Source: an uncultured Spirochaetaceae bacterium (lineage in GTDB: Bacteria > Spirochaetota > Spirochaetia > Sphaerochaetales > Sphaerochaetaceae). Taken from it: a stretch of 64,000 nt of DNA. Below are positions 27,130 through 64,000 of this stretch, piece by piece; position 1 is the stretch's first letter, and each line of letters opens with the position of its first letter. Where the stretch lies: contig CALXKS010000016.1 in NCBI GenBank assembly GCA_944389015.1, positions 1 through 64,000 of the forward strand. The letters run 5' to 3'. Position numbers and translations under genes: made by a program. The notes below the pieces were generated by a model. The model saw nothing but the letters and a program-made list of their open reading frames with translations. It had not been told where the DNA came from and did no database searches.

Positions 27130-27130
27130 A

Positions 27131-27159
27131 TTCACGATTAACCGCAGCTTTGGTAGAAT
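27131..27159 (+). promoter_or_regulatory. Probable leaderless promoter of the HAD phosphatase gene
   Basis: TTCACG, 17-base spacer, TAGAAT (27154-27159), then six bases and ATG 27166. The -35 lies almost on the start codon of the divergent apbE. Confidence 0.55.
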
Positions 27160-27165
27160 CGGATT

Positions 27166-27994: not shown

Positions 27995-28525
27995 CTATTT
28001 CAGGAATTCCTGAATCTCATTCCTATTGTCAGATACAATCATGGGCCGTCCTGCATCCTTTAGCATGGAAATGACCCTGTCATATATAGGACCACCATAC
28101 TCAGGAAGATCGGTATATACTGCTATCTTCCTTATCTGGGGAGCAAATGAGACAGCATCAGCTATCGCATCGGCAGATGGATTGACCGACAGAAGGGATG
28201 CAGAGAGGACCGCTCCATCTATCTCTGGATGTCTGGAAAGAACATCTATTAGGTCCTCAGCCCTGATCCCCGTTGGAGCGCTTAGTTTCAGAAGGACATC
28301 CTCTCCGATATGGAAGGCGGAATGAAGCGTGGATTCCATCATCTCCACCTTTCTCCCTTCTGCTTCCAGTTCCTCCTTCATATCCTGTCCTGCAGCATCA
28401 TCTGACAATGCTGTAATGAGCAGAAAGCCGGGAAAATCCATGCCCGTTCCTGTGAATGAATGGGAATACAGCCCATTTTCCGCTTTCATATATGCTGAGA
28501 ATATCTCACCGATTGCAGCCTGCAT
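27995..28525 (-). CDS. Protein of unknown function
   Basis: A 176-residue soluble protein with no signal peptide or membrane span. The C-terminal half has a Rossmann-like rhythm (strand IDGAVLSASLLSV, helix, strand KIAVYTDLPEYGG, helix, strand PMIVSDNRNE). No family recognised. It has a leaderless-type start: TATGAT ends six bases before ATG. It faces away from another unknown gene across a 34-bp gap, and the two may be co-controlled. Confidence 0.65.
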   Translation of the reverse strand: MQAAIGEIFSAYMKAENGLYSHSFTGTGMDFPGFLLITALSDDAAGQDMKEELEAEGRKVEMMESTLHSAFHIGEDVLLKLSAPTGIRAEDLIDVLSRHPEIDGAVLSASLLSVNPSADAIADAVSFAPQIRKIAVYTDLPEYGGPIYDRVISMLKDAGRPMIVSDNRNEIQEFLK

Positions 28526-28559
28526 GGAGAAATCATAGCAGATTGCTTATAATGAATCC
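28526..28559. promoter_or_regulatory. Compact divergent leaderless promoter pair
   Basis: The whole 34-bp gap between two start codons holds TATGAT for the minus gene (28537-28532) and TATAAT for the plus gene (28548-28553). Each ends six bases before its ATG, with 10 bp between the boxes. Each -35 position would fall on the start codon of the opposite gene (TGGATT and TGGAGA). Confidence 0.6.
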
Positions 28560-28973
28560 ATGAATACGAAAAAAGCGGTATGGATAGGACGGCCGGAAAA
28601 GCTGAGGACTACGCTGCACTCCTATGAGTTCGAGGCAGATGGAAGCAATTCCGTATTCTTCACTGTCGGAGAAGCTGGAACGATTGAACTCATGAAGGAA
28701 GGTAGCGCAGAGAGCGTATTCATGCTTCTTCACTCCCCTTCTGATTTCATTATTTTCAAGAAGGACATGATAAGGATATCATTCGCGGGCCTTGCTGCTG
28801 ATATCCCACACAGCACTGGCAGCAGAATCACCATGCAGAAGGAAGGGAAAAGGATTGTATTCAAGAATGGGGATGAAACAATACTTGAGCTGGAAAAGGA
28901 TGCCTTCTATTCCTCCGCATCATTCGGAATAGCTGCAGAAGGCCCTGGTTCTGTCTATATTGAGGTTTTCTAG
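28560..28973 (+). CDS. Protein of unknown function (beta-rich)
   Basis: A 137-residue protein starting MNTKKAVWIGRPEKLRT. It has no signal peptide. Alternating hydrophobic and polar segments (TLHSYEFEADGSNSVFFTV, KRIVFKNGDETILELEKD, FGIAAEGPGSVYIEVF) suggest a beta sandwich or concanavalin-like domain. No family recognised. It is a single gene with a leaderless-type start, followed by glnS on the same strand after 64 bases. Confidence 0.65.
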   Translation: MNTKKAVWIGRPEKLRTTLHSYEFEADGSNSVFFTVGEAGTIELMKEGSAESVFMLLHSPSDFIIFKKDMIRISFAGLAADIPHSTGSRITMQKEGKRIVFKNGDETILELEKDAFYSSASFGIAAEGPGSVYIEVF

Positions 28974-29037: not shown

Positions 29038-30729
29038 ATGGAAAACAAAGAAGAAAGGCCTCTCAATTTCATTGAGAAGATCGTCGAGGAGGATCTCCGG
29101 GAAGGACGTGTACCAGACAGCACTGTCGTGACGCGCTTTCCACCAGAGCCCAATGGCTACCTCCACATCGGACATATCAAATCGATATGCATCAACTTCG
29201 GCATAGCTGAGAAATACGGCGGCAGATGCCATCTCAGGCTTGATGATACAAATCCAGAGAAAGAGGATCAGGAATACATTGATTCAATAAAGAGCGATAT
29301 CCACTGGCTCGGCTTTGACTGGGGCAAGTATGAGTACTATGCATCGGATTACTACGATCAGCTTTTCGATATTGCAGTCAATCTCATAAAGGAAGGCAAG
29401 GCATATGTCGATTCCCTCTCTCCCGAGGAGATGAAGGAGTACAGGGGAACACTGACCGAACCGGGAAAGAACTCTCCGGACAGGGATAGATCCATAGAGG
29501 AGAATCTCGATCTTTTCATGAGGATGAAGAACGGCGAGTTCCCTGAAGGAAAGTATACGCTCAGGGCAAAGATCAATATGGCAAGCCCGAATATAAATCT
29601 CCGTGATCCAGCGCTCTATAGAATCAAATATGCAGAGCATCCGCGAACAGGAAACAAGTGGTGCATCTATCCGATGTATGACTTCACCCACCCTATCTCA
29701 GATGCTATTGAGGGAATAACCCACTCCATCTGCACCCTTGAGTTCGAAGACCACCGGCCTGCATATGACTGGGCCACATCGATTGACGGGATCGATCACA
29801 CCCCGCATCAGTATGAGTTCGCAAGGCTGAACATAAACTATCTTCTCATGAGCAAGAGAAAGCTTCTTTATCTTGTGAACAATCATCTCGTTGATGGCTG
29901 GGATGACCCGAGAATGCCTACAATCGCAGGAATAAGAAGAAGAGGCTACTCTCCTGAAGCGATGAAGGACTTCGTACAGCGTGTAGGAGTCGCGAAGGTC
30001 GAGTCCGTTGTCGATTACTCGCTTATGGAATTCTGTGTCAGGGAAGATCTCAACAAGAGAGCCCGGAGGCTTATGGCTGTGCTCGACCCGCTGAAGATCA
30101 TCATAGACAACTACCCGGAGGGACAGATCGAATACTTCGAAGCGGAGAACAATCCCGAGGATGAGAATGCAGGAACTCATAAGGTAGCATTCACAAAGGA
30201 ACTCTACATCGAAAGTGAGGACTTCATGGAAGTTCCTGTCAAAGGATATCACAGGCTCTATCCGGGGAATGAGATAAGACTGAAGCATGCATACTATGTC
30301 ACAGCTGTCTCTGTCGACAAGGATGAGAATGGGAACATCACTGCAGTGCATTGCACATATGATCCTGAATCAAAGGGCGGTACAACAGCTGATGGCAGGA
30401 AAGTCAAGGGAACAAGCCACTGGGTATCAGCAACCGAGTCTGTCGGATGCGAAGTTCGTCAATACGACAAGCTCTTCAAGGCAGAGAATCCAGGCGCTGC
30501 GACCGGAAACTATCTTGACGATCTCAATCCTGAATCTCTTGTTGTGATCAGGAATGCACGCATCGAAAAGGAAGGAGAGAACGCAAAGCCAGGCGATTAT
30601 CTTCAGTTCATAAGAAATGGATACTATATGGCAGACAGCCATGACAGCTCCCCAGAGCATCTCGTCTTCAATCGTACTGTGACACTCAAGGACTCATGGT
30701 CGAAGATGAAAGCCAAGATGGGAATCTGA
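29038..30729 (+). CDS. glnS: Glutaminyl-tRNA synthetase
   Basis: Charges tRNA-Gln directly with glutamine; class I synthetase of 563 residues, the normal length for GlnRS. The HIGH region is FPPEPNGYLHIGHIKSICIN, followed by DDTNPEKEDQEYIDSI as in GlnRS rather than GluRS. The KMSKS counterpart reads LMSKRKL. The C-terminal anticodon-binding beta barrels are complete. GACGGAGGAATACT gives a clear ribosome site. The stop is immediately adjacent to the stop of the convergent gene, with no spacer. Confidence 0.96.
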   Translation: MENKEERPLNFIEKIVEEDLREGRVPDSTVVTRFPPEPNGYLHIGHIKSICINFGIAEKYGGRCHLRLDDTNPEKEDQEYIDSIKSDIHWLGFDWGKYEYYASDYYDQLFDIAVNLIKEGKAYVDSLSPEEMKEYRGTLTEPGKNSPDRDRSIEENLDLFMRMKNGEFPEGKYTLRAKINMASPNINLRDPALYRIKYAEHPRTGNKWCIYPMYDFTHPISDAIEGITHSICTLEFEDHRPAYDWATSIDGIDHTPHQYEFARLNINYLLMSKRKLLYLVNNHLVDGWDDPRMPTIAGIRRRGYSPEAMKDFVQRVGVAKVESVVDYSLMEFCVREDLNKRARRLMAVLDPLKIIIDNYPEGQIEYFEAENNPEDENAGTHKVAFTKELYIESEDFMEVPVKGYHRLYPGNEIRLKHAYYVTAVSVDKDENGNITAVHCTYDPESKGGTTADGRKVKGTSHWVSATESVGCEVRQYDKLFKAENPGAATGNYLDDLNPESLVVIRNARIEKEGENAKPGDYLQFIRNGYYMADSHDSSPEHLVFNRTVTLKDSWSKMKAKMGI

Positions 30730-31365: not shown

Positions 31366-31371
31366 ATGGAT

Positions 31372-31377
31372 ATTCTA
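31372..31377 (-). promoter_or_regulatory. -10 box of probable leaderless promoter
   Basis: TAGAAT on the minus strand followed by six bases (ATCCAT) and ATG 31365. Confidence 0.55.
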
Positions 31378-31411
31378 GCATAATGCACTTCACAGGACAG
31401 AGCATGAGGTC

Positions 31412-31417
31412 TACAAT
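31412..31417 (+). promoter_or_regulatory. -10 box of probable leaderless promoter
   Basis: TACAAT followed by six bases (CACAGC) and ATG 31424. AGCATGAGGT occurs twice, at 31401 and 31421; the first copy opens a frame that stops after seven codons. Confidence 0.55.
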
Positions 31418-31423
31418 CACAGC

Positions 31424-50783: not shown

Positions 50784-52409
50784 TCACTCCCCGGATATGA
50801 CTCTGAGGATCTCAGGCAGAAGCTGCTTTTTGCGCGAAAGCACTCCAGGAAGGCTTAGCATCCCATCTGAGATCTTTTCATAAGCAAGCTTCTGGACAAG
50901 AGGATAATCAGTAGTAAGAAGAACCGAGGATCCGCGGATGACATCGGTAATAAGAAGCATGCACCAGTCAAGTCCGCCCCGCGCTCTGACAGCTTCCAGG
51001 GCCTCAATATACTTATCCTTTATCCCATCAGCCTCCTGTATATTCGTAACCTCCACCTGCCCGATTGCAAAGCTTGTCTTTCCTTCCTTATAGGTCTTCA
51101 TATCGGAACGTATGATGCTCTCTGCATCCTTTTCCGCAAGTGATATATCGTTTGAGAAAAGCTCCTCTGAGAATCTGCCGATATCCACACCTGCAATCGC
51201 AGATAGCTTCTCCGCAACATGCCTGTCATAATCTGTCGTTGTTGGGCTTTTAAGCATTACAGTATCTGATACAAGACCCGCAAGCAGGACTTTTGCCGTC
51301 ATGGCATCGAGATCCACACCCCACTTCCTGAACTGCTCATAAACTATAGTGCAGGTTGATCCAAGAGGCTCAGAGCAGATATAGATCGGCGTTCTCATTC
51401 TCGGAGCCGCAAGCCTGTGATGATCAAGTATCTCTACGATCTCCCCATCCTCAATGCCTGGAACGGACTGCTCTATCTCGTTATGATCCACAAGTATGAA
51501 TCTCTTCCGGGGCTTGTCGAGGAAGCATCGTCTGGTGACAAAACCGGACCACTTTCCATCGGTATATACAGACAATCCCCTGTACTCACTCTCCTGCAGT
51601 GTCTTCTTCGCATCATCGAACAGCATATCGGAATCAAGCTTCACATCCTCACTCTGCATGATATCGGAAAGCGGAGTTGAAAGACGCATCAGACGCAGAG
51701 TCTCAGCGGTATCCATTGCAGAAACATACACAAACCCGCTGAAAGAAGAGAAATCGAAATCGAATTCATCCAGCCGCTCTATCCCCGTAAGCACAATACC
51801 GGGAAGCGACCGTGATATAGCAGCCTCAAGATGCTTTCTCCTGTCACCTATGATGAGCACTGGCTTTATCTGGCACTTATCAAGCCGGGAAAGGAATACG
51901 CCATACTCCATCGCTCCGACCATATAAGGAGCTTTCACATCCTTTCCGCTTCCATGCTTAAGGAATGTCCCCTTGATTACCCTTCCTATATTCTCCTCGG
52001 AGAGCGTATAGCTCATTCTCTCACCATGCCTGCTCTCCCGGAGAAAGAAATTGTTGATATCATCGGATGAGAGAAGGCACCTGTATTCACCGTTATCTAT
52101 TACAGGAACGACTGTCGGACGCATCCTGGAATAAAGATCCATCAGAAGATATATCGGGTCGGATGACGTCATGGAATATGTAGGAGATTTCTTGACTTCC
52201 CCTACCCTTGGCTTTGCATCATGCATGAAATCAGGCAGGTCGAGCGAGTTTGAAACAAAGAACTGCTTTGTGTTGCTGTTTGCAGCCCCTAGCATTATAG
52301 GCTTATAGATGTTTCCATCATCCAGTTTGTTCTTGAGAATGGAGTATGCCCAGGCAGAGCATACTGAATCCATATCGGGATTGCGGTGTCCTGTAATGTA
52401 GATTTCCAT
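50784..52409 (-). CDS. ppaC: Manganese-dependent (family II) inorganic pyrophosphatase with CBS/DRTGG insert
   Basis: Hydrolyses pyrophosphate in the cytoplasm. The DHH catalytic start TGHRNPDMDSVCSAWAYSIL and the later FILVDHNE and EILDHHRLAAP hold the metal ligands; DHHA2 forms the C-terminus. Between them lie two CBS segments (around 70-130 and 245-290) with a DRTGG domain between, which in known enzymes of this class bind adenine nucleotides and regulate activity. The 541-residue length fits the regulated class. TATCAT ends seven bases before the ATG; no strong ribosome site. Confidence 0.93.
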   Translation of the reverse strand: MEIYITGHRNPDMDSVCSAWAYSILKNKLDDGNIYKPIMLGAANSNTKQFFVSNSLDLPDFMHDAKPRVGEVKKSPTYSMTSSDPIYLLMDLYSRMRPTVVPVIDNGEYRCLLSSDDINNFFLRESRHGERMSYTLSEENIGRVIKGTFLKHGSGKDVKAPYMVGAMEYGVFLSRLDKCQIKPVLIIGDRRKHLEAAISRSLPGIVLTGIERLDEFDFDFSSFSGFVYVSAMDTAETLRLMRLSTPLSDIMQSEDVKLDSDMLFDDAKKTLQESEYRGLSVYTDGKWSGFVTRRCFLDKPRKRFILVDHNEIEQSVPGIEDGEIVEILDHHRLAAPRMRTPIYICSEPLGSTCTIVYEQFRKWGVDLDAMTAKVLLAGLVSDTVMLKSPTTTDYDRHVAEKLSAIAGVDIGRFSEELFSNDISLAEKDAESIIRSDMKTYKEGKTSFAIGQVEVTNIQEADGIKDKYIEALEAVRARGGLDWCMLLITDVIRGSSVLLTTDYPLVQKLAYEKISDGMLSLPGVLSRKKQLLPEILRVISGE

Positions 52410-52416
52410 GCCTTAA

Positions 52417-52426
52417 ATGATATAAT
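52417..52426. promoter_or_regulatory. Overlapping divergent -10 boxes
   Basis: ATGATATAAT contains TATCAT for ppaC (minus, 52422-52417, seven bases before its ATG) and TATAAT for rpiB (plus, 52421-52426). The boxes share two base pairs, so polymerase should not occupy both at once. Confidence 0.55.
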
Positions 52427-52446
52427 GAGTCAAAGGAGTTTTGAAG

Positions 52447-52890
52447 ATGTCAAAAGCGGTCATGGCAAATGATCATGGTGCTGTTGAGCTTGCAGCAAGG
52501 CTTAAGAAGCACCTTGAAGGGAGAGGAATCGAGGTTGTATATCTCGGAACGGATAAAGAAGAAAGCGTTGATTATCCAGACAAGGCAGAAGAAGCAGTAA
52601 ATGAATTCAGGAAGGGTGGTTACGATTTCGGTGTTCTTCTCTGTGGAACAGGAATAGGAATATCTGTAGCAGCGAATAAGATGGACGGTATCAGATGCGC
52701 ACTGCCGCAGACAGCATATTCTGCAGAGATGACAAGACGGCACAACAATCCGCAGTTCATAGCTTTCGGAGGACGCGTTGACTATGCTGAGGATCCAGAG
52801 AAGATCCTTGATGCATTCATCGATGCCACATTCGAAGGCGGACGCCATCAGAGAAGAATAGACAAGATGATGGCATTGGCCGGAAAGTAA
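52447..52890 (+). CDS. rpiB: Ribose 5-phosphate isomerase B
   Basis: Interconverts ribose 5-phosphate and ribulose 5-phosphate in the pentose phosphate pathway. Of 147 residues, normal for the RpiB/LacAB family. The catalytic Cys loop reads LLCGTGIGISVAANK and the substrate His/Arg residues are in MANDHGAVEL and MTRRHNNPQ. ATG 52447 is chosen because AGGAG stands 8 bases upstream; TTG two codons earlier is weaker. Confidence 0.94.
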   Translation: MSKAVMANDHGAVELAARLKKHLEGRGIEVVYLGTDKEESVDYPDKAEEAVNEFRKGGYDFGVLLCGTGIGISVAANKMDGIRCALPQTAYSAEMTRRHNNPQFIAFGGRVDYAEDPEKILDAFIDATFEGGRHQRRIDKMMALAGK

Positions 52891-52893
52891 GCA

Positions 52894-52920
52894 ATCAGGG
52901 GGCTCAGAAGGCCCCTTGAT
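52894..52920. terminator. Hairpin after rpiB
   Basis: ATCAGGGGGC ... GGCCCCTTGAT forms a stem of about nine pairs with a short loop directly after the rpiB stop. There is no strong T run, so it is a weak or rho-assisted terminator. Confidence 0.55.
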
Positions 52921-52973
52921 CCATCTTCGGCAAATAAGAGATCAATCTGAAAGATCAGGGAAGAACTTATCAG

Positions 52974-53735
52974 ATGAACATCAAATGGAATGCGGATAAA
53001 TATAACAGGGATTTCTCTTTTGTGCATCAGTATGGACAGGGTGTAATCGATCTCATTGATTTCAATGGCAAATCAACTGCAATAGATCTTGGCTGTGGCA
53101 ACGGAGTTCTTACGAAAGCACTCAAGGAAAAGGGTCTCTCGGTTACCGGAATCGATTCATCTGAAGAACAGCTCCGCATTGCAAGAGAGCTCTATCCGGA
53201 TATCTCCTTCATTGCAGCTGATGCAGTATCTCTCTCCGTTCGGAATCCTGTCGATATAGTTTTCTCGAATGCTGTATTCCACTGGATTGACAAGGACAAG
53301 CAGCAGACAATGCTCTCAAGCATTTCACGTTCCCTTAAGGAAGGAGGACAGCTTGTCTTTGAAATGGGAGGACATGGCAACAACAGTCTCATCCACAGTG
53401 CTCTCAGCGATGTCTTTGAAAGACATGGATACATATACATAATGCCGTTTTACTTTCCCAGCATAGGCGAATACTCTGCGATGCTGGAAGCTGCAGGAAT
53501 GGAAGTCACCTATGCAGTCTTGTTTGAACGCCCTACAGAGCTGAAGGGAGATAACGGCCTTGCAGACTGGATACGGATGTTCATACGTACACCATTCTCC
53601 ATAATCGGGGACAAAGAAGAAGAGAATACCATAATCCTTGAAGCTGCAGACATTCTCAGAAAAAATCTGTTCAAAAATGGAAAATGGTATTTAGACTATG
53701 TACGGTTAAGGATGAAAGCAATAAAATCCAATTAA
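52974..53735 (+). CDS. Class I SAM-dependent methyltransferase
   Basis: A 253-residue methyltransferase resembling trans-aconitate 2-methyltransferase. Motif I is AIDLGCGNGVLTKALKEKG, the acidic residue follows in VTGIDSSEEQL, and VFSNAVFHWIDKDKQQ carries the post-II motif with the F-H-W typical of Tam-like enzymes. The C-terminal half (PTELKGDNGLADWIRMF) also fits. The acceptor is not known. The start has GGGAAG about 10 bases upstream. Confidence 0.85.
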   Translation: MNIKWNADKYNRDFSFVHQYGQGVIDLIDFNGKSTAIDLGCGNGVLTKALKEKGLSVTGIDSSEEQLRIARELYPDISFIAADAVSLSVRNPVDIVFSNAVFHWIDKDKQQTMLSSISRSLKEGGQLVFEMGGHGNNSLIHSALSDVFERHGYIYIMPFYFPSIGEYSAMLEAAGMEVTYAVLFERPTELKGDNGLADWIRMFIRTPFSIIGDKEEENTIILEAADILRKNLFKNGKWYLDYVRLRMKAIKSN

Positions 53736-53751
53736 GGATATATCCTGCATA

Positions 53752-53787
53752 TTCTCTGCTAATGCAAATCAATTAATTAGCAGAGAA
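53752..53787. terminator. Perfect 12-bp inverted repeat between convergent genes
   Basis: TTCTCTGCTAAT and its exact reverse complement are separated by 12 bases. It lies between the stops of the methyltransferase gene and the island's last dehydrogenase gene, at the edge of the AT-rich operon. It could be a bidirectional terminator without a T run, or a boundary mark. Confidence 0.55.
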
Positions 53788-53818
53788 ATGGCATTGATTA
53801 CTTCAAATCCAAAAAGAC

Positions 53819-54766
53819 TTAAAGGATTATATTCTGCTGTCGACCATCCATCCATGCAGCAAGATTATCAAATACAATCTTCGCCCTAAGAGACATGGAT
53901 TCCTTTGTAGCAAAAGCAACATGAGGAGTTAAAATACAATGTGGAGCTTTTAGTATTGGTGAATCAATTCCTAAAGGTGGTTCTATATCAAAAACATCAA
54001 TACAGGCCCCTGCTATAGTTCCATTCTCCAAAGCATTTATTAAATCTGATTCAACAACGACTGGTCCTCTTGCGACATTTATCAGAAGCGATGTTTTCTT
54101 CATTTTTTCCAAATTCGCTTTATCCATAAGGCCTTTCGTAGAATCATTGAGAGGGCAATGAAGTATTACAATATCAGATCTTCTTAAGAGTTCATCAAGT
54201 GCAACTTGGTTTATATAAGATGGGGCATTATTATGGTAGCTTCTGGAATTAGCAAGAATATCAGCACCAAGCGCATGAAACAACTCCGCTGTTCGTGTCC
54301 CGATTCTCCCTAATCCTATAATACCAACTATCTTATCCTTTATTTCCCATCCCAATAAACCGGATTTATCCTTACCTTCACGGCACCGATTATCCAATTG
54401 ATGTATATTTCTCGCAAAAGAAAGTGCCATTCCAATAACCAATTCAGATACTGCTTCATTTGAATAACCAGATGCATTGCTTACTTTTACATCATTTTCT
54501 TCAGCAGCAGTTAGACCAACATGATCTACACCTGTAAATGCGACGTCTATGAATTTCAATTTCTTGCATCCTCTTATGACGTCATCCGGCATAGGCATAT
54601 TGGCAATTATAATTACATCAGCATCAGAACCTTCCTCAATAAGCTTGTTTTTATCAGTAGTTTTCTCATATTCAACGAATTCAACTCCATTCTCAATAAA
54701 AGGCTTCTCAAACTCGCGGAGTTCACATGGTGATATACCAAGATCCTCCATAATCACAATCTTCAT
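53819..54766 (-). CDS. D-2-hydroxyacid dehydrogenase (second)
   Basis: NAD(P)-dependent dehydrogenase of 315 residues interconverting a 2-keto acid and a D-2-hydroxy acid. The Rossmann loop is VGIIGLGRIGTRTAELFHALG; the active-site Arg is in INVARGPVV, the Glu in the IDVFDIEPP region and the His in LTPHVAFATKES. It is diverged from the neighbouring dehydrogenase. Last gene of the AT-rich Tct operon, 27 bases after its neighbour. Confidence 0.9.
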   Translation of the reverse strand: MKIVIMEDLGISPCELREFEKPFIENGVEFVEYEKTTDKNKLIEEGSDADVIIIANMPMPDDVIRGCKKLKFIDVAFTGVDHVGLTAAEENDVKVSNASGYSNEAVSELVIGMALSFARNIHQLDNRCREGKDKSGLLGWEIKDKIVGIIGLGRIGTRTAELFHALGADILANSRSYHNNAPSYINQVALDELLRRSDIVILHCPLNDSTKGLMDKANLEKMKKTSLLINVARGPVVVESDLINALENGTIAGACIDVFDIEPPLGIDSPILKAPHCILTPHVAFATKESMSLRAKIVFDNLAAWMDGRQQNIIL

Positions 54767-54793
54767 TTCAATCCTCCATAATAAATCATGAAC

Positions 54794-55750
54794 CTAATTG
54801 ACAACATTAGTCGGAGCTCCTTCAATATACGCTCTGAGGTTTTCTACCGCTGTCTTCATAAGACGCTCCCTGCTTTCCTTTGGAGCCCAGGAAATATGAG
54901 GAGTTATAAGGCAATTGTCAAATTTCAATAACTGATTATCTGGTTGTATCGGTTCAGTCGCAACGACATCCAAAGCAGCAGCACCTACTTTACCAGAAGA
55001 AAGAGCTTCTGCAAGAGCATCTTCATCTATCAATTGTCCTCTGCTGTTATTAATAATAATCACTCCATTCTTCATCTTCTCCAAAGTAGTTCGATTGATG
55101 ATCTTCTCGGTATCAGGCAAAAGCGGACAATGCAACGCTATAACATCACACACAGGCAACATATCATTTAATTGCATATAACGATACCCGTCAGATTCTT
55201 TTTCCGCAGATCTTATTTTGTCGTTATATACGATTTTCATCCCCAAAGCTTTTGCAATTTCACCGGTACGCTGCCCTATACGTCCGAATCCTATTATTCC
55301 CATGGTTTTCCCAGCCAATTCCATCAATGGATAATCCCAGAAACACCATTCTCCTGAAGAAGCCCAGCGTCCTGCTTTAACTGCATCATTATGGTGACCA
55401 ACTCTTCCTGTTACCTCTAACAGCAGCGATATAGCATATTGAGCAACAGCATCCGTACCATATGATGGAATATTTGTTACAGTAATTCCTCGTGATTTAG
55501 CATATTCAACATCGACGATATTGTATCCTGTTGCAAGGACCCCTATGTATTTCAAATTACATGATCCTGAAAGATTGCCTTTATTCAGATTAACTTTATT
55601 TACGATAACTGCATCGGCCGCAGCTATTCGATCAGCCACATCTTCCGGATCCGTATTATCATAAACAATCAGATCACCTAATTCTGAAAACCCTTCCCAG
55701 CTGAGATCGCCTGGATTCTCCTTTGCGCCATCAAGAATAACAATCCTCAT
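54794..55750 (-). CDS. D-2-hydroxyacid dehydrogenase (first)
   Basis: A 318-residue enzyme of the glycerate/phosphoglycerate dehydrogenase family. Rossmann loop MGIIGFGRIGQRTGEIAKALG; active-site Arg in INNSRGQLIDED, Glu in DVVATEPIQ and His in ITPHISWAPKES. The S-W-x-P after the His is common in hydroxypyruvate (glycerate) dehydrogenases. Start overlaps the FAH-family stop by one base. Together with the next dehydrogenase it points to a 2-keto/2-hydroxy acid in this pathway. Confidence 0.9.
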   Translation of the reverse strand: MRIVILDGAKENPGDLSWEGFSELGDLIVYDNTDPEDVADRIAAADAVIVNKVNLNKGNLSGSCNLKYIGVLATGYNIVDVEYAKSRGITVTNIPSYGTDAVAQYAISLLLEVTGRVGHHNDAVKAGRWASSGEWCFWDYPLMELAGKTMGIIGFGRIGQRTGEIAKALGMKIVYNDKIRSAEKESDGYRYMQLNDMLPVCDVIALHCPLLPDTEKIINRTTLEKMKNGVIIINNSRGQLIDEDALAEALSSGKVGAAALDVVATEPIQPDNQLLKFDNCLITPHISWAPKESRERLMKTAVENLRAYIEGAPTNVVN

Positions 55751-56631
55751 TACTTAACTCCATTAATCATATGACCAATACCTTCAATACTTACCTCAAC
55801 AATATCTCCCTTTCGAAGGAACCTTGGAGGATCGAACCCTTGCCCAACTCCTGCAGGCGTACCAGTGGCAATAATATCTCCTGGCTCCAAGGTAATACCC
55901 CGGGATAACTCATAAAGCAAATCACCAACATTCATCCTCATCAACCGTGTATTTGAATGCTGTCTAAGATCTCCATTTACACGACTCTCGATATCATATC
56001 CGCCATTGAACGCAATCATATCTGAAGATACAATCCAAGGTCCCATGACAGAGAATGTATCAAGGCTTTTCCCCAAATACCATTGGGCATGGCTGCTTTG
56101 CAGACTTCTAGCACTGATATCGTTGAAAATAGAATATCCAAAAATATGACCACTTAATTCATTGTATCCAACAGAAGAATCAATAGCTTTGCCGATAATA
56201 ACAGCAAGCTCAACTTCGTAGTCTAAACAGCTATCAATATCGAGATGGCCATAAATATCTTCATTAGGACCTGTAATAAAAGATGCGCGTTTTCCAAAAT
56301 AGACGGTTTCCTCAGGGGATTCGAATCTACCACCAAAGAAATGCTTCTGAGTTTCTTCAAGGTGAGATACATAATTCACACCTACGCAGATTATATCATG
56401 CTTTGCCCTAGGTATTGGCGCCATTAATCGTACATCCTCAAGAGGTATCCCTTTTTGACTTTCAGACGCTTTAAGCAAAGATCTTTCCTGCTCAACGGTC
56501 CTATTCTCAATAAAAGCCATTATAGATCCGAAATCAGAATCTAATACTTCGTCAATGATCAGGACTCTTTTGCCATCAGCGGATATTATTCCTGCTTTCT
56601 CACCATTCCATTCAACTGTGACATATTTCAT
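55750..56631 (-). CDS. Fumarylacetoacetate hydrolase (FAH) family protein
   Basis: A 293-residue metal-dependent enzyme; members hydrolyse, decarboxylate or hydrate beta-diketo or keto acids, and some act on 2,4-diketo sugar acids. Marks: IICVGVNYVSHLEETQ, YFGKRASFITGPNEDI, metal-site DYEVELAVIIG (E-x-E) and GYSIFNDISARSLQ, then TLEPGDIIATGTPAGVG. ATG 56631 with GGAGG before it is used; a much longer frame upstream only runs antisense-like sequence within the nitrilase gene. A sugar-acid derivative as substrate is inference from the neighbouring genes. Confidence 0.88.
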   Translation of the reverse strand: MKYVTVEWNGEKAGIISADGKRVLIIDEVLDSDFGSIMAFIENRTVEQERSLLKASESQKGIPLEDVRLMAPIPRAKHDIICVGVNYVSHLEETQKHFFGGRFESPEETVYFGKRASFITGPNEDIYGHLDIDSCLDYEVELAVIIGKAIDSSVGYNELSGHIFGYSIFNDISARSLQSSHAQWYLGKSLDTFSVMGPWIVSSDMIAFNGGYDIESRVNGDLRQHSNTRLMRMNVGDLLYELSRGITLEPGDIIATGTPAGVGQGFDPPRFLRKGDIVEVSIEGIGHMINGVK

Positions 56632-56635
56632 AAGT

Positions 56636-58168
56636 TCAATCCTCCAACAAGCGTGAATATGCGGATGGTATACGTCCCGTGATAATCTCAGTACCCGGAA
56701 CCACGGTTTTATTTCTTGCCAAGGAGATATCCAGCAGGCATGTAACAAGCATGTTTTGATCAATAAAAGTAGATGCATAAACATTCCCATCAGGATTAAT
56801 GGAACATGATCGACCCAAAAGAGAACTGCAAATCGTAAAAATCTTGTTCTCCGCAGCTCTTGTACGGATAGCTCGCATTTCCTTATCGGAAATATCACGA
56901 TTCATCCATATAATGCATTCCGCTCCATCCAGCATAAGACATCTGGAAATTTCTGGTACAAACAATTCATCCCCAAAAATGAATCCTAGCCTTATTCCAT
57001 TGCAATCAACAGCAGAAATATAATCATTGCCAGAATCCAGATGAGTCGGTAAAATCTGTCTGACTCCTTCACAATCCATGATATAAGCAACTGCGTTATT
57101 CTCTGTATAAGAAGAAAATATCACTATCTTACCAGAAGGAAGGCTATATCCAAAACTCTCAAAAACAGTATCAGGATCTATTTTATAGCCACAGGGTGAT
57201 AACACGGAAATATCAGCATGCTGCATTTCCGCATTCTTGATAAAGAATGAACTCTTGTCCAAATATTCAGATTGCAAGCAATTTCCAACTCTGATTAGTG
57301 CAATGAATTTATGCAGATCCTGAAGTCGACAGGGAGAATCAAATCTTTTTTGCAAAAAACTGGGTAAACTGGCATCGGCAATCCTTGCATATAGAGATGA
57401 TTTTCTACGAAGAGGAACATTGTCGGAGGATAATTCTACATCAGCATATAAAATCTCCTCTTGATCAACAGATGCCTGAGAAATCAGTGTTCCCTCCTTA
57501 TCAACCACAAAACTCTGCCCGGCAAAGAAAATCGAATCATATTCACTGCCGCATTTATTGGCCAGAACTATCGGAATCCTATTCTCTGCAGCTCTCGTAG
57601 CCACAATAAACTGCAACTGCTGATTAGTCAGAAGAGATTTTTCCGGAGCGTTGCTTACAAGGTTAGCAGAATCGACTATAACCTGAGCACCATTTAATTT
57701 CAGGATTCTTGCAATCTCAGGAATACGGGCATCAGCACATATCATTACTCCGATTCTTCCAAAAGGAGAATCAAAAACACAGTATTCTTTACCTGGAGTA
57801 AACAAATCCCGATCGATATGCCACATATTCGATTTATCAGCTTTTGCAACTATCTGCCCATCAGGACCAAAAACAATAACACTATTGAAGAGTTTTCCGG
57901 CGTCTTCACGTATACATCCCATTGCAATATAGACAGAGTTTTTTGCAGCTATCTCACCAATAGAATCCAAATACTCAGAATTCCTGATATATTCCATGCA
58001 CTTATCTATAGAAGGAGAAATATAATATCCAGGAATTGTGCATTCTGGAAAAACAATCATATCAGCCCCTTCTGAAGCTGCTGTTTGAATCATTTCAATA
58101 AGATCAGCTGCATGCGAAGAATACTCTTCGCAATCGAATCCACATGTTTGTACAATTGCAAATTTCAT
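56636..58168 (-). CDS. Tandem carbon-nitrogen hydrolase, second domain inactive
   Basis: Two nitrilase-superfamily domains in one 510-residue chain. Domain 1 (about 1-255) has the full triad: Glu42 in VFPECTIPGYY, Lys112 in KADKSNMWHIDR and Cys144 in VMICADARIPEIAR, so it should hydrolyse an amide or nitrile. Domain 2 (about 315-505) repeats the fold; its matching segment LGFIFGDELFVPEISR has Gly399 in place of the Cys, and no clear Lys. It is probably a dead, structural or regulatory copy. The gene touches tctA upstream by one base. Confidence 0.82.
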   Translation of the reverse strand: MKFAIVQTCGFDCEEYSSHAADLIEMIQTAASEGADMIVFPECTIPGYYISPSIDKCMEYIRNSEYLDSIGEIAAKNSVYIAMGCIREDAGKLFNSVIVFGPDGQIVAKADKSNMWHIDRDLFTPGKEYCVFDSPFGRIGVMICADARIPEIARILKLNGAQVIVDSANLVSNAPEKSLLTNQQLQFIVATRAAENRIPIVLANKCGSEYDSIFFAGQSFVVDKEGTLISQASVDQEEILYADVELSSDNVPLRRKSSLYARIADASLPSFLQKRFDSPCRLQDLHKFIALIRVGNCLQSEYLDKSSFFIKNAEMQHADISVLSPCGYKIDPDTVFESFGYSLPSGKIVIFSSYTENNAVAYIMDCEGVRQILPTHLDSGNDYISAVDCNGIRLGFIFGDELFVPEISRCLMLDGAECIIWMNRDISDKEMRAIRTRAAENKIFTICSSLLGRSCSINPDGNVYASTFIDQNMLVTCLLDISLARNKTVVPGTEIITGRIPSAYSRLLED

Positions 58169-59694
58169 CAGTCTGCCTCTATAACAATTTCATCTTCTTT
58201 TCCACTTCTGGTCTTCTGAATAGATCTGAATACTGTCCAAAGGATAGAAAGAATCATAATTACAGCCATTGTTCCTGCAATTGGACGCGTAAAAACAAGG
58301 CCGATATTACCATCAAACATCGAAAGCGATTGCTTCAGGCTACTCTCAAATTGAGGCCCCAGGAACATTCCAATAGCAACGGGAGCCAATGAGAAACCGC
58401 CTTTTGCAAGAAACCATCCTGCGATGCCGAATAAAACCAGCATCGACAAATCGAAAATGCTATAATTCAATGCATAAGCCCCTGTAAAGGTTATAAGAGC
58501 AACAATCGGCATCAATATCTTCATAGGAACTTTAAGGATTTTAGCAAAAGCTGGCACTAGTGGAAGATTAAGAATCAGACATATAAGGTTGCCGATATAC
58601 ATACTTGCTACGAGTCCCCAGAACAATGCAGGATACATTGTCATGAGCCTTGGCCCAGGAACGATTCCATGAATTCGGAAACCACTGACCAATAGTGCCG
58701 CAGAAGAACTGAATGGAAGACCTAAGGCCAGCAAAGGAATCATCTGAGCAGTTGAAGCTGCATTATTTGCGGATTCAGGACCAGCAACGCCTTCAATAGC
58801 ACCATATCCATCCCACTCATCCTTATGCTTTGACAACTTCTTTTCCAATGAATATGACACATAAGTTGAAAGGGACATCGCAGGGCCTGGAAGCAATCCC
58901 ATTATGAATCCTATGATAGTACCTCTTCCGATTGGACATACAGATCGTTTTGTTTCTTCTTTATTGGGGTATAAATCCCTTAAACGGACTTTCTGTTTGA
59001 CTGAAGTATCAACGGGATGAATCATAGTATCCATAATTTCCCCTAAACCAAAAAGCGCCATTATTACAATTATGAAATCCAATCCCTCCAGAAGATTCAG
59101 ACTACCAAATGTGTATCTTGCAATAGAACCGGTAGCATCCATTCCAACACTCCCAAGCATCATTCCAAGAAGAACCATAATGTAGCTTTTCACTTTTGAT
59201 TTTCCAGTCATATTTGCAAGGAGAATCAATCCTAATGCTGCTATCATCATGTATTCAGGTGGACCGAATTTCAGAGCCCATCGAGATAAAACAGGAGCAA
59301 AGAAAGTCAATCCGATGACACCAATAGTGCCAGCAAAAAATGATCCCATGGCACAAACGCACAATGCAGCACCAGCCCTACCTCTCTTTGCCATAGAATG
59401 TCCCTGCAGACAAGTGACAACAGAGGCTCCCTCTCCTGGTACATTGACGAGAATTGAGGTTGTAGAACCTCCATACATAGCCCCATAATATATACCGCTG
59501 AACATTATTAAAGCAGTTAATGGCTCCATTCCATAACTTAAAGGAAGCAATAAGGCAATAGAACCGGAAATACCTAAACCAGGAAGAATCCCTGCCAATG
59601 TTCCAACAAGAGCGCCTGCAAATGCTGCTGCTATGTTTTTCAGAACCAAAGCTTCACTAAAACCAGATAAAAGCATAGTAACGCTTTCAAGCAT
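58168..59694 (-). CDS. tctA: Tripartite tricarboxylate transporter, large membrane subunit
   Basis: Second TctA of the window, 508 residues, about twelve spans. Family motifs are GTLAGILPGLGISGSIALLL near the start and FIMGLLPGPAMSLSTYVSYS in the middle, with TSILVNVPGEGASVVTCLQG between. It is diverged from the copy at 21-22 kb. Directly upstream is tctB and directly downstream the nitrilase gene, so the transporter and hydrolase are made together. Confidence 0.92.
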   Translation of the reverse strand: MLESVTMLLSGFSEALVLKNIAAAFAGALVGTLAGILPGLGISGSIALLLPLSYGMEPLTALIMFSGIYYGAMYGGSTTSILVNVPGEGASVVTCLQGHSMAKRGRAGAALCVCAMGSFFAGTIGVIGLTFFAPVLSRWALKFGPPEYMMIAALGLILLANMTGKSKVKSYIMVLLGMMLGSVGMDATGSIARYTFGSLNLLEGLDFIIVIMALFGLGEIMDTMIHPVDTSVKQKVRLRDLYPNKEETKRSVCPIGRGTIIGFIMGLLPGPAMSLSTYVSYSLEKKLSKHKDEWDGYGAIEGVAGPESANNAASTAQMIPLLALGLPFSSSAALLVSGFRIHGIVPGPRLMTMYPALFWGLVASMYIGNLICLILNLPLVPAFAKILKVPMKILMPIVALITFTGAYALNYSIFDLSMLVLFGIAGWFLAKGGFSLAPVAIGMFLGPQFESSLKQSLSMFDGNIGLVFTRPIAGTMAVIMILSILWTVFRSIQKTRSGKEDEIVIEAD

Positions 59695-59708
59695 ATTGCC
59701 CTCCTATT

Positions 59709-60170
59709 TCAATACAGTAATGCTTCCAAAACGATTCCTTCAGGAAGCCCAACGTTGAGAATGATCTGAAAAATAATAAAGAATACTGCTGTTACTGCTA
59801 TTGACAGAATGAATTTCTTGATAAAGGGTTTTACATCAGTAACTGTAAATAGCACAAAAAGAAATACAATACTCGCAATTATGTATCCCAGAAGATATAG
59901 AAGAAAAACATAACCAGCAAAAACAAGAATTATCTTTGCAAAAACAAAGAGTTCTCGGATATCAAATCCATTATCTTCCTTATCCGGATGTCTGATCTCA
60001 AAAAGGAGATCAAGTATACACATAGCAATTGCCAGCAACCCTATGCATCTTGGAAGAAATCCACCTTTCGGATTTGCAGCCTCGCCCGCAGGCATTCTAA
60101 CGAATGCCAAGAAAGTATAAATCAAAGCCAAAATAAGCAAAGTCCCAGATACAATTATTTTCTTCTTCAC
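59709..60170 (-). CDS. tctB: Tripartite tricarboxylate transporter, small membrane subunit
   Basis: A 153-residue membrane protein with four predicted spans (ILALIYTFLAFVRMP, GLLAIAMCILDLLF, IILVFAGYVFLLYLLGYIIA, FILSIAVTAVFFIIFQI). It overlaps the TIM-barrel gene by four bases and is followed by tctA after 14 bases. Assigned by size, topology and position. Confidence 0.85.
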   Translation of the reverse strand: MKKKIIVSGTLLILALIYTFLAFVRMPAGEAANPKGGFLPRCIGLLAIAMCILDLLFEIRHPDKEDNGFDIRELFVFAKIILVFAGYVFLLYLLGYIIASIVFLFVLFTVTDVKPFIKKFILSIAVTAVFFIIFQIILNVGLPEGIVLEALLY

Positions 60171-61897
60171 TTGAAGATCTCCTTTGCAATTCCTGCCTCT
60201 TCGATGCTTTCCTTTATTTTTTCAATAGCGCAGTCAATCCTGTCCTGATCAAGAACAATATAGATTATGTAATACCAATCAGTAGTCCTGAAAATCTCAC
60301 CTATTCTGTAATCATCATCCTTCAAAGCCCCAAAAGCTTCCCTCAATTTCAGCTTTGCTTCTTCATCAAAGCTTCTATCCCGTGTATCTTCTTTAAAAAA
60401 CTTTGCAAGCAGAATGCAATAAACAAGATCTCTATAAGTTTTCGTATAAAGATAATCAGCCTTCACAAATGAATCCAAGAACTTACAGCAGGCAGCATTA
60501 AGGCCCGGATCATATGAAGAAAAATGCGAAACAATATGATTCATCAGATCCAAAGCCATATCCTTCTCGGAAAGATTCTTTCTAAGGATTCCAAGGTCCT
60601 TAACAGAAAGCGCATCCTCTTTGCTTTTATCCCAATCCTTAAGACTATTCTTTTCTTCAGCTAGCCAAAATGCATGCTCAATGCTTGATGGAAATTCTGA
60701 GGAATCATTGAATACACAATCATTTACAAATGCTGTTCTGGAAAGAACAGGCCAAGTCATGTCCAATCCCTTCGCAACAAAAGCTGCAGCTCTATCTTTC
60801 TCCTGTGAAGAAATTCCTTTTTTGAAGAAATTTTTATACTCCAGCCAAGAACGATATATTTCTATTTTATCCACATCAGCATTCTTATCTATTGCAGCAA
60901 CAGCAAAAAGATTGATTAAATTCGGTGTTTCAAATACTGAATGACCATCTATGGCTTCCCAATCTGTTCGTACAAGAATCCCGGAAACACCCTTTGACTT
61001 TGCATTCTCAATCCTATGCCGTATATCCTCGTCCATGATGGATATGCCAACACCTAGGCCGTAATACTGCCCCATAGTATCATATTCAATCCATTGCTCA
61101 TGCCCTTTGGATTTCCCAATCCTTGGATTATCAGGGAATGTCGGATAATAATCATGAGGAGTATTCTTTAATGAATAGATTATGTCAGAAGGGAGCTTTT
61201 CCATTGCATCTGATATATCTTTATGAGCATCGGAATTGAATACAAAATCCCTTACTATCAACTTGGACCCAGCGGCTTTTATGGGTTCATACATAGCCAT
61301 TATCACATCTGTATGCCATTTCTCTGCACTATAATCCTGACAACGTTCACATTGGCATCTGTTCGCTGTTATACTTGCCTTGCTTTCTCCTGTAGCGGTA
61401 GAGGTGATAATTCCAGCCACTCCATGATATAACCTGAAGAATTCCTGATATTTGTATTTTACATAATCAAGCAGAAAAGGATTTGTTACACAAACAGCTC
61501 CATTCTTCCTAAGTTCAGGATAAAGCTCATCTATACAATCAAGATAATTTATCTCCTTATTCTCAATATAAACTTCAAGCCCCCTTTTCGCTGCTTCTCT
61601 GAGAATATATCTGAAATATAATCCTTTCTTATATGGAACATCTCTTCGAGTTGGATCATATTTGTACATCTTCCTATACAGCTCATCATATATTTCTGAA
61701 ATGTTTGAATACTCATTCCTGCTCATTGGAGCAATATAATTTGATGGAAAAAGAAGCTGATCTACGAAATCATTTCTATGAAAAGATACCCCTGTCATTT
61801 CATTTGCGACAGCGAAGTCCATTGCCCTGAGAGTCTTCTCTGCATCCCAGGCATAATTACTGTGAATTTCAATAAGGCTATGTGTGAATTTTTCCAT
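60167..61897 (-). CDS. Predicted TIM-barrel hydrolase-like protein, family unknown
   Basis: A 576-residue cytoplasmic protein without signal peptide. The first 330 residues look like a (beta/alpha)8 barrel of the glycoside-hydrolase kind: IEIHSNYAWDAEKTLRAMDF, LEVYIENKEINYLD, ANRCQCERCQDYSAEKW (C-x-C-x2-C, perhaps a metal site), KLIVRDFVFNSD, QWIEYDTMGQYYG, ILVRTDWEAIDGHSVF. The rest is helical. The R-C-Q-C-E-R-C-x-D type motif occurs in several GH-like barrels that process uronates or chitin. I cannot name a family. Its place between tctB and tctC is unusual and ties it to the imported substrate. Confidence 0.7.
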   Translation of the reverse strand: MEKFTHSLIEIHSNYAWDAEKTLRAMDFAVANEMTGVSFHRNDFVDQLLFPSNYIAPMSRNEYSNISEIYDELYRKMYKYDPTRRDVPYKKGLYFRYILREAAKRGLEVYIENKEINYLDCIDELYPELRKNGAVCVTNPFLLDYVKYKYQEFFRLYHGVAGIITSTATGESKASITANRCQCERCQDYSAEKWHTDVIMAMYEPIKAAGSKLIVRDFVFNSDAHKDISDAMEKLPSDIIYSLKNTPHDYYPTFPDNPRIGKSKGHEQWIEYDTMGQYYGLGVGISIMDEDIRHRIENAKSKGVSGILVRTDWEAIDGHSVFETPNLINLFAVAAIDKNADVDKIEIYRSWLEYKNFFKKGISSQEKDRAAAFVAKGLDMTWPVLSRTAFVNDCVFNDSSEFPSSIEHAFWLAEEKNSLKDWDKSKEDALSVKDLGILRKNLSEKDMALDLMNHIVSHFSSYDPGLNAACCKFLDSFVKADYLYTKTYRDLVYCILLAKFFKEDTRDRSFDEEAKLKLREAFGALKDDDYRIGEIFRTTDWYYIIYIVLDQDRIDCAIEKIKESIEEAGIAKEIFK

Positions 61898-61911
61898 TTT
61901 CTCACTCTATA

Positions 61912-61935
61912 TTCTGCCCCAAGGACGGGGCAGAA
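61912..61935 (-). promoter_or_regulatory. Intra-operon stem-loop after tctC
   Basis: A perfect 9-bp inverted repeat, TTCTGCCCC ... GGGGCAGAA with a 6-base loop, lies between the tctC stop and the next gene. No T run. Same position as the stem-loops after the other binding-protein genes. Confidence 0.7.
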
Positions 61936-61964
61936 CTAAAATCTCAAGGCGAATCCTATATTTC

Positions 61965-62984
61965 TCAGTTTCTCTGAGACATTATCTCATCCCAGATGCC
62001 GCTTTCATGCATTGATGAAACATATTTGTCAGTTGTGTCTTTAATAAGCTGAGTAAAATCATCACCAATTACAGGAGTTACAACAAAACCAAGCTTTTCT
62101 ATTTCAGCCTGCACCTCAGGATCATTGAGCATCTCTGTAAATTTCTCGCAATAATATTGATAAATATTATCCGGCATTTCAGCTGAACAGATTATGCCCT
62201 GCCAAAGAGAATCAGTGACATCGATTCCGAATTCAGTAATAGCAGGCACATTCTCAAAACCTTCTATATCACACCGCTCGTCAGAGAATACAATAACGCA
62301 CTTAAACTCTCCGGCCCTAACATACTCACCTGCATCAATAACATTTGAATAGAGAATATCAATATTTCCACCAAGCATTGCAGTGACAGCCTCTCCGCCA
62401 GAGCCAAAAGCAACAGATCTCATTTCTATTCCTGCAGCTCTTGATAATCTGCTCATCATGATATTCTCATTTCCAGCCAAACCTGTAATACCATATGTCA
62501 GTTCTCCTGGATTCTCTTTTGCAAAATTGATTATATCTTCCAGAGAATTGAATGGGCTATCATTTCTAACCGCGAGAATCCTAGGAGCATCCCCACCTTT
62601 TGCTATTCCTATTACCTCATTTTCAAAATCATATTTCAGCTTTGTGGTAGAAAGAACAACATTCAGCATAACACCACTGGACATACTTCCAATTGTATAA
62701 CCATCAGGCCTAGCATCAAGAAGCGCTGTAAGACCAAGGATATTATTTCCTCCCGCTTTGTTCTCAACCACAAGAGGTACTCCAAAATACTTCTCGCCGA
62801 ACTGAGTGAATACCCTAGCAAACATATCAGATGAACCACCAGCACTGAATGGAACAACAATAGTGATAGGCTTGCTGGGCCTCCATTCACCATTATCGGC
62901 AGATGAAGATTCTCCTGATCCATTCGCAAAAATCGGTGCAGCAACCAATGCAATGAGAATAAGAGATACAATTAACTTCCTCAT
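61965..62984 (-). CDS. tctC: Tripartite tricarboxylate transporter, substrate-binding protein
   Basis: Exported binding protein of 339 residues, first gene of the AT-rich operon. ATG 62984 has AAGGAGG before it and starts a signal peptide (MRKLIVSLILIALVAAPIFA) followed by a GSGESSS linker. Family marks: ITIVVPFSAGGSSDMFARVF, VVENKAGGNNILGLTALLDA, ILAVRNDSPFNSLEDI and GGNIDILYSNVIDAGEYV. Ligand probably an organic acid. A LacI-type palindrome and promoter lie upstream. Confidence 0.93.
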   Translation of the reverse strand: MRKLIVSLILIALVAAPIFANGSGESSSADNGEWRPSKPITIVVPFSAGGSSDMFARVFTQFGEKYFGVPLVVENKAGGNNILGLTALLDARPDGYTIGSMSSGVMLNVVLSTTKLKYDFENEVIGIAKGGDAPRILAVRNDSPFNSLEDIINFAKENPGELTYGITGLAGNENIMMSRLSRAAGIEMRSVAFGSGGEAVTAMLGGNIDILYSNVIDAGEYVRAGEFKCVIVFSDERCDIEGFENVPAITEFGIDVTDSLWQGIICSAEMPDNIYQYYCEKFTEMLNDPEVQAEIEKLGFVVTPVIGDDFTQLIKDTTDKYVSSMHESGIWDEIMSQRN

Positions 62985-63012
62985 TGGCTTCCTCCTTTTT
63001 ATTCTTATCCAA

Positions 63013-63041
63013 AGCATAAAAGCTCATTTCAAATAATGCAA
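63013..63041 (-). promoter_or_regulatory. Candidate promoter of the AT-rich Tct operon
   Basis: On the minus strand TTGCAT (63041-63036), 17-base spacer, TATGCT (63018-63013). Transcription would start near 63006, about 20 bases before the tctC start codon. Confidence 0.45.
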
Positions 63042-63050
63042 CAATAATTT

Positions 63051-63064
63051 TTTGAACGTTCAAA
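63051..63064. promoter_or_regulatory. Candidate LacI operator of the AT-rich operon
   Basis: Perfect 14-bp palindrome TTTGAACGTTCAAA with central CG, just upstream of the predicted -35 box of the tctC operon. Confidence 0.7.
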
Positions 63065-63325
63065 TTAACATTATTTGCTCTTCTCAAACTTAAATAAATT
63101 TCATCATCTCTTTAAATATTGAATTCCCAACCTATTCGCGGAATCCGCTCTCGCAAGAAATTTATTCTTAACTGTATATATATTTCCTTATTGTTTAAAT
63201 AAATAATATTAATTATTGAAACTATATGTAAAATAGGATACAAATTTCATTCTTTCCACTACGTCAAAAGAGCATAATTATCAATATCATTTGTACTTTC
63301 AGAAAACTTGTTAAAAAAATAAAAT

Positions 63326-63339
63326 TTTGAACGTTAATA
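63326..63339. promoter_or_regulatory. Second LacI-type operator near lacI
   Basis: TTTGAACGTTAATA matches the first half-site and core of the palindrome at 63051-63064. It lies 50 bases before the lacI start codon, 275 bp from the first site, which suggests autoregulation and possible looping. Confidence 0.55.
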
Positions 63340-63389
63340 TTATTTTTATTGCAGACTTTACGGTTCATAATTAAGATAATGAGGTAAGA

Positions 63390-64000
63390 ATGGCTACAAT
63401 TAAAGATATAGCAAGGCTTACAGGGTTATCGCATACTACCGTTTCAAATGTTATCAACAAGAACGGTAATGTAAGCATTGAGAAAATACGTATTGTTGAG
63501 GAAGCAGCTATAAAGCTTGGATATTCTCAGAATATAAAAGCAAAGCTCCTCCGGAATAGCAAATCAAAGCAAATAGCTATAATTGTTCCTAATCTGGAAA
63601 TACCGGAATATCTGCATCTATACCTTTCGGCAAAATCATATATCGAAGACAATGGATTTGAATGCGAGCTTTTTCTTACTGATGATATTGTCAGAAAGGA
63701 AAAAGATGCTATAGCAAGGATAGCTGGATTTGAGATGGCTGGAGTCATCGCAATATCAACTCTTGATCATGCAAATTTGGAAAGTATTCCCGATTCAATA
63801 CCTATTCTATACGTTGAGAGGAAAAACAGTGATATTTCCGGCAGAGCATTTATTGGATTTGACTATACAGTTGCATCAGAAGAAATCGCAGAATATATAA
63901 AAAAAGAAAAATTCCGGAATATTGCATTCCTTTCTGGCGGAACAGGCTTTTCGAATAACTCTGAATTGTTCATGAATCTTCAATCACATTGCATAAATTC
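63390..64000 (+). CDS. LacI family transcriptional regulator (partial)
   Basis: N-terminal 203 residues of a LacI-type repressor; the gene continues past the window. The helix-turn-helix IKDIARLTGLSHTTVSNVIN is typical, followed by the start of the effector domain (IAIIVPNLEIPEYLHLYLSA, YVERKNSDISGRAFIGFDYT). GAGGTAAGA precedes ATG. Divergent from the AT-rich Tct operon and flanked by matching palindromes, so it most likely controls that operon and itself. Confidence 0.9.
   Translation, partial: MATIKDIARLTGLSHTTVSNVINKNGNVSIEKIRIVEEAAIKLGYSQNIKAKLLRNSKSKQIAIIVPNLEIPEYLHLYLSAKSYIEDNGFECELFLTDDIVRKEKDAIARIAGFEMAGVIAISTLDHANLESIPDSIPILYVERKNSDISGRAFIGFDYTVASEEIAEYIKKEKFRNIAFLSGGTGFSNNSELFMNLQSHCIN

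Follow-up and report, generated by a model that had tools for sequence, protein, structure and literature searches.

The 34 bases that separate the start codons of two divergent genes at 28526–28559 of the window (the whole 64,000-nucleotide stretch analysed here, from an uncultured Spirochaetaceae bacterium) very likely hold two sigma-70-type promoters that face away from each other and overlap fully, with transcription in each direction beginning on the A of the respective ATG and both mRNAs leaderless. The pair is genuine and conserved, and promoter types already described account for it well; the first-pass annotation went too far in calling it near-minimal in length and in holding that the two genes must fire mutually exclusively.

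Read directly, the gap consists of ggagaa, ATCATA, gcagattgct, TATAAT and gaatcc, in that order. CAT at 28523–28525 is the start codon of the minus gene and ATG at 28560 that of the plus gene; by the sequence and the ORF list, both open reading frames begin there. The box identities, their distance from the start codons and the 10 bp between them are all as the first-pass annotation described. The features of the region are:

27995–28525, minus strand: minus gene, 176 aa, a truncated, degenerate PfkB-family (ribokinase/fructokinase-like) protein, from the ORF and the genus profile
28525–28530, plus strand: plus −35-like hexamer TGGAGA, 17-bp spacer, first base within the minus start codon
28532–28537, minus strand: minus −10 box TATGAT (ATCATA on the forward strand), six bases before the minus ATG
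28538–28540, minus strand: TGC directly before the minus −10 box (extended −10 pattern TGn), read from the sequence
28548–28553, plus strand: plus −10 box TATAAT, six bases before the plus ATG
28555–28560, minus strand: candidate minus −35-like hexamer TGGATT, 17-bp spacer, weak (3/6 to TTGACA)
28560–28973, plus strand: plus gene, 137 aa, predicted concanavalin/galectin-like β-sandwich
29038–30729, plus strand: glnS, preceded by a Shine-Dalgarno sequence; it follows the plus gene in most of the genus's genomes

The −35 regions had been expected inside the opposite gene, overlapping its start codon. At 17-bp spacing (28525–28530 for plus, 28560–28555 for minus) there is indeed a one-base overlap with the start codon, the outermost base of the minus hexamer pairing with the A of the plus ATG, but the hexamers themselves sit in the gap. 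Their matches are weak (4/6 and 3/6). In a simple promoter scan, the plus promoter TGGAGA-17-TATAAT was the best site in the region at 10/12; taken as a whole, the region held no more promoter-like sites than shuffled sequence (4 vs 6.0).

Both start codons are well fixed by where the proteins begin and by stop codons a short way upstream. Throughout the genus the first codon of the plus protein is the same (MNTKK or MQIKK), and the plus frame is closed 7 codons upstream, giving an open frame of 144 codons for 137 aa. Eight codons ahead of the minus ATG there is a TAA, with no intervening start codon, and the M(I/Q)AVIGE-like N-termini of the gene's relatives begin at this position. No Shine-Dalgarno sequence was read at either start in the window; across the genus, a loose pattern found SD-like words at 9/47 plus starts and 1/25 minus starts. 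Given fixed starts that lack a Shine-Dalgarno sequence, both mRNAs are therefore probably leaderless and the promoters of sigma-70 type. A box at −12 to −7 with six-base spacing would place +1 on the A of each ATG, and the predicted start points of the two directions are then 35 bp apart. Among 47 genomes the plus start codon is ATG in 42 and GTG in 5, with no others; these are the codons that leaderless initiation requires in mycobacteria, where a leaderless ATG or GTG suffices (PMC4633059).

All 48 genomes of the genus carry the plus gene. Its start is preceded at 6–7 bases by a TAnnnT box in 45 of 47 genomes, against a mean of 2.2 and a maximum of 6 in shuffles; for the minus start, the box occurs at that distance in all 25 genomes that could be tested (shuffles: mean 1.3, maximum 6). 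These figures come from related genomes and so are not independent-sample probabilities. The plus box is a perfect TATAAT in 25 of the 47 and is missing in two (L018 and L045). When a shifted minus start is allowed, the table count for the minus box is 27/28; in farther genomes the protein match stops short of the minus start, and these were left out of the count, with CAT and the box visible in several. Most spacer columns carry approximately 0.1–0.5 bits and box columns 0.6–2.0 bits. The boxes at conserved positions are not due to chance. The reading of the gap as two back-to-back leaderless-type promoters, kept at the same place in related genomes, is thus borne out; conservation extends to the box positions but not to the distance between the genes.

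Four genomes (G000, G009, G018 and G013) have a 34-bp gap, and their sister G020 has one of 62 bp; most others have 50–57 bp and two have 78–79 bp. One genome scored 114 bp, from a partial minus match. In the plus-protein tree, rooted at the midpoint, the 34-bp forms make a single clade (support 99/82) with the 62-bp form as sister (94/87). In the long form, found in most of the genus, the −10 boxes are approximately 26–33 bp apart, compared with 10 bp in the window, and both −35s lie between them. The long-form minus promoter has TTG at −35 with a spacing of 17–18 bp in 22 of 23 cases, and the other spacings between 15 and 23 show no such signal; the plus −35 is weaker, with only TGGAT at 17–18 bp. 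The long form thus has the −35 and −10 elements interleaved in both directions, which matches the pattern of overlapping divergent sigma-70 promoters, and the short form is a weaker example. We considered whether a TTGC-N5-GCAA repeat of the long form could be an operator and rejected this, because the minus −35 makes up the right half of the repeat and the spacing of the left half is unusable for a plus −35.

In the short form, the long-form minus −35 is gone from between the boxes, and the TGGAT-like hexamers, at 17 bp, are made up of the gap edge plus a single base, the first, of the opposite start codon. They are perfectly symmetric in L004 and L005 (CATGGATT...AATCCATG). The words gcagat and TATAAT are common to L004 and L006; these shared words and the 62-bp sister form suggest that approximately 28 bp were probably lost in the short-form clade. 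The weak minus −35 of the short form is partly offset by the TGC before the −10 box, which is present in L002–L006.

We therefore picture an arrangement that, in most of the genus, places each −35 between −10 boxes some 26–33 bp apart. In the window's clade, a deletion of approximately 28 bp would have drawn the boxes to 10 bp and removed the old minus −35. After this the minus promoter would lean on its better −10 box with the upstream TGC, and each weak −35 would abut the opposite start codon. RNA polymerase has a footprint of about −55 to +20, and two polymerases cannot occupy either the short or the long form at once. With polymerase holding one direction at a time, the genes could interfere only if one promoter were strong.

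That the short form evolved as a regulatory switch, for mutual exclusivity of the two genes, is unlikely in our view. The footprints of polymerases on the two promoters would nearly coincide, and both families stay paired head to head throughout the genus and, for the most part, in the sister genus, which speaks for a switch. Double occupancy is, however, already excluded in the long form; neither of the two genes encodes a regulator; and a deletion that one clade has tolerated would be enough to explain the short form. The first-pass annotation had proposed that this geometry forces mutually exclusive firing, which is correct in that simultaneous occupancy is sterically impossible, but five E. 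coli bidirectional promoters of tighter geometry show no measurable basal competition, and compete only when activity is raised (PMC12825309). Quite unlikely, too, is a broader, genus-wide version, in which the overlapping leaderless pair would use polymerase exclusion to balance a lectin-like protein, and the glnS that follows it, against what remains of a sugar kinase, one clade having shortened the arrangement until each −35 overlaps the opposite start codon and comes partly under coding constraint.

The E. coli promoters also provide a model for a strict bidirectional promoter, with one pseudo-symmetric −10 region shared by both directions. Such promoters are common in prokaryotes, and they resemble the present pair in transcribing divergently from a short stretch (here AT-rich) to which polymerase cannot bind both ways at once (PMC12825309). 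Their −10 is shared and their start points are commonly 10–23 bp apart, whereas here there are two separate boxes, 10 bp apart in the window and approximately 26–33 bp apart in most of the genus, with predicted starts at least 35 bp apart and no 5′ leader, so that a shared −10 is very improbable. We give equally little credence to the idea that the plus promoter alone is real, the minus gene being a kinase fragment in decay whose box arose by chance: the minus protein is indeed truncated and degenerate, but its box is at 6–7 bases in 27/28 genomes, the TTG −35 is at 17–18 bp in 22/23, and its reading frame stays open across the genus. The preferred reading remains two separate, overlapping, leaderless-type promoters.

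The genus profile of the minus gene matches fructokinase 3hj6 (E 1.4e-5) and, weakly, other PfkB kinases; one of 12 family members matches PF00294 (E 0.0015), and the window's protein alone gave no family match. In the window's part of the genus the proteins end at approximately 176–188 aa, and the C-terminal, nucleotide-binding half with the GAGD motif of PfkB sugar kinases is missing. The longer relatives (242–267 aa) likewise had no GAGD in the sequences read. We note that this truncated frame stays open throughout the genus without its catalytic half; longer versions have approximately 250 aa in deeper relatives and 230–245 aa in most of the sister genus. The plus family was found in this genus and in one sister genus of the family, and family searches with the plus protein gave no match. 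Structure models were built from three close sequences and are of low confidence (pLDDT 63 and 56); the plus-protein model (pLDDT 63), which was used for the structure search, resembles galectin and CBM66 β-sandwiches. The plus protein may therefore be a lectin-like β-sandwich, which we treat as a lead only, and a sugar-related link between the two genes is only a guess.

We then consider how the pair compares with other starts in this genome, which is a draft metagenome assembly; genome-wide counts come from a 355-kb sample of stretches. In this sample a strong box (5–6 of 6 matches) lies 6–7 bases before 14 of 97 divergent starts, compared with a mean of 1.3 and a maximum of 5 in 500 dinucleotide shuffles. 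A strong box is rare at genes that closely follow a neighbour on the same strand. A genome-wide leaderless-type peak was seen in counts at called gene starts; raw TATAAT-Nd-ATG counts over all positions gave no clear peak. Leaderless-type starts are common in this genome, and the divergent promoter pair is not special in kind. Nor is it close to the smallest divergent promoter possible, as had been suggested: the sample contains divergent gaps of 16, 19 and 26 bp, between computed gene starts, and the start points of E. coli bidirectional promoters are 10–23 bp apart (PMC12825309). The 16- and 19-bp gaps (L059 10286–10303 and L069 13607–13627) have a leaderless-type box on the plus side.

The gap between apbE and the HAD gene (27130–27165) had been suggested as possibly built in the same way, with a weaker minus box. 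On the HAD side this is so, with TAGAAT at six bases (27154–27165); counting duplicates, 23 of 25 loci keep the box. Before the apbE ATG, however, no TAnnnT box occurs at 5–7 bases, either in the window or in L033, a relative with 75% identity. In many relatives the HAD hydrolase gene also has a recurrent GCAAC..CTT word approximately 35 bases upstream. A second head-to-head pair occurs at 31366–31423 (minus gene from 31365, plus gene from 31424), with leaderless-type boxes on both sides, TAGAAT and TACAAT at six bases each, and so is built like the pair at 28526–28559. These boxes are kept in relatives that have both genes head to head; orthologues of the 31424 gene that lie behind glnS on the same strand mostly have no box, which provides a natural contrast. 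Elsewhere in the window, G+C drops from approximately 0.48 to 0.37–0.41 over 52001–64000, with a stronger GC skew, and this segment is possibly acquired DNA.

Members of the two families also lie mostly head to head in the sister genus, approximately 50–62 bp apart, but there the minus gene in many cases has an SD-like sequence; a pair with both starts leaderless therefore appears to be a trait of the window's genus. This box position has been described for leaderless genes in 207 of 953 bacterial genomes, among them 6 of 18 Spirochaetes, with a mean of 3.9% of genes (PMC3160421). The pair has the features of these TA-led genes, namely a TAnnnT box approximately 10–12 bp before the start codon and no Shine-Dalgarno sequence, and differs in that two of these starts are arranged back to back over a common 34–57 bp; a term search of the main text of that survey found no mention of divergent genes. 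M. tuberculosis lysG/lysE (PMC5648196) similarly has overlapping −10/−35 motifs in a short intergenic region, and one lysE transcript is leaderless; however, that region is 108 bp long, with a dedicated LysR-type regulator and an inverted repeat, whereas here there is no regulator gene and both starts are of leaderless type. A partial literature search found no prior report of this pair, nor any paper describing leaderless transcripts in start-site maps of Treponema.

The forms of 62, 50–57 and 34 bp make up a natural series, which bears on how close leaderless divergent promoters can come and on whether polymerase exclusion then matters. More generally, leaderless-type starts are indicated as a regular feature of this uncultured spirochaete genus, and gene-start annotation there should therefore make use of the −10 box.
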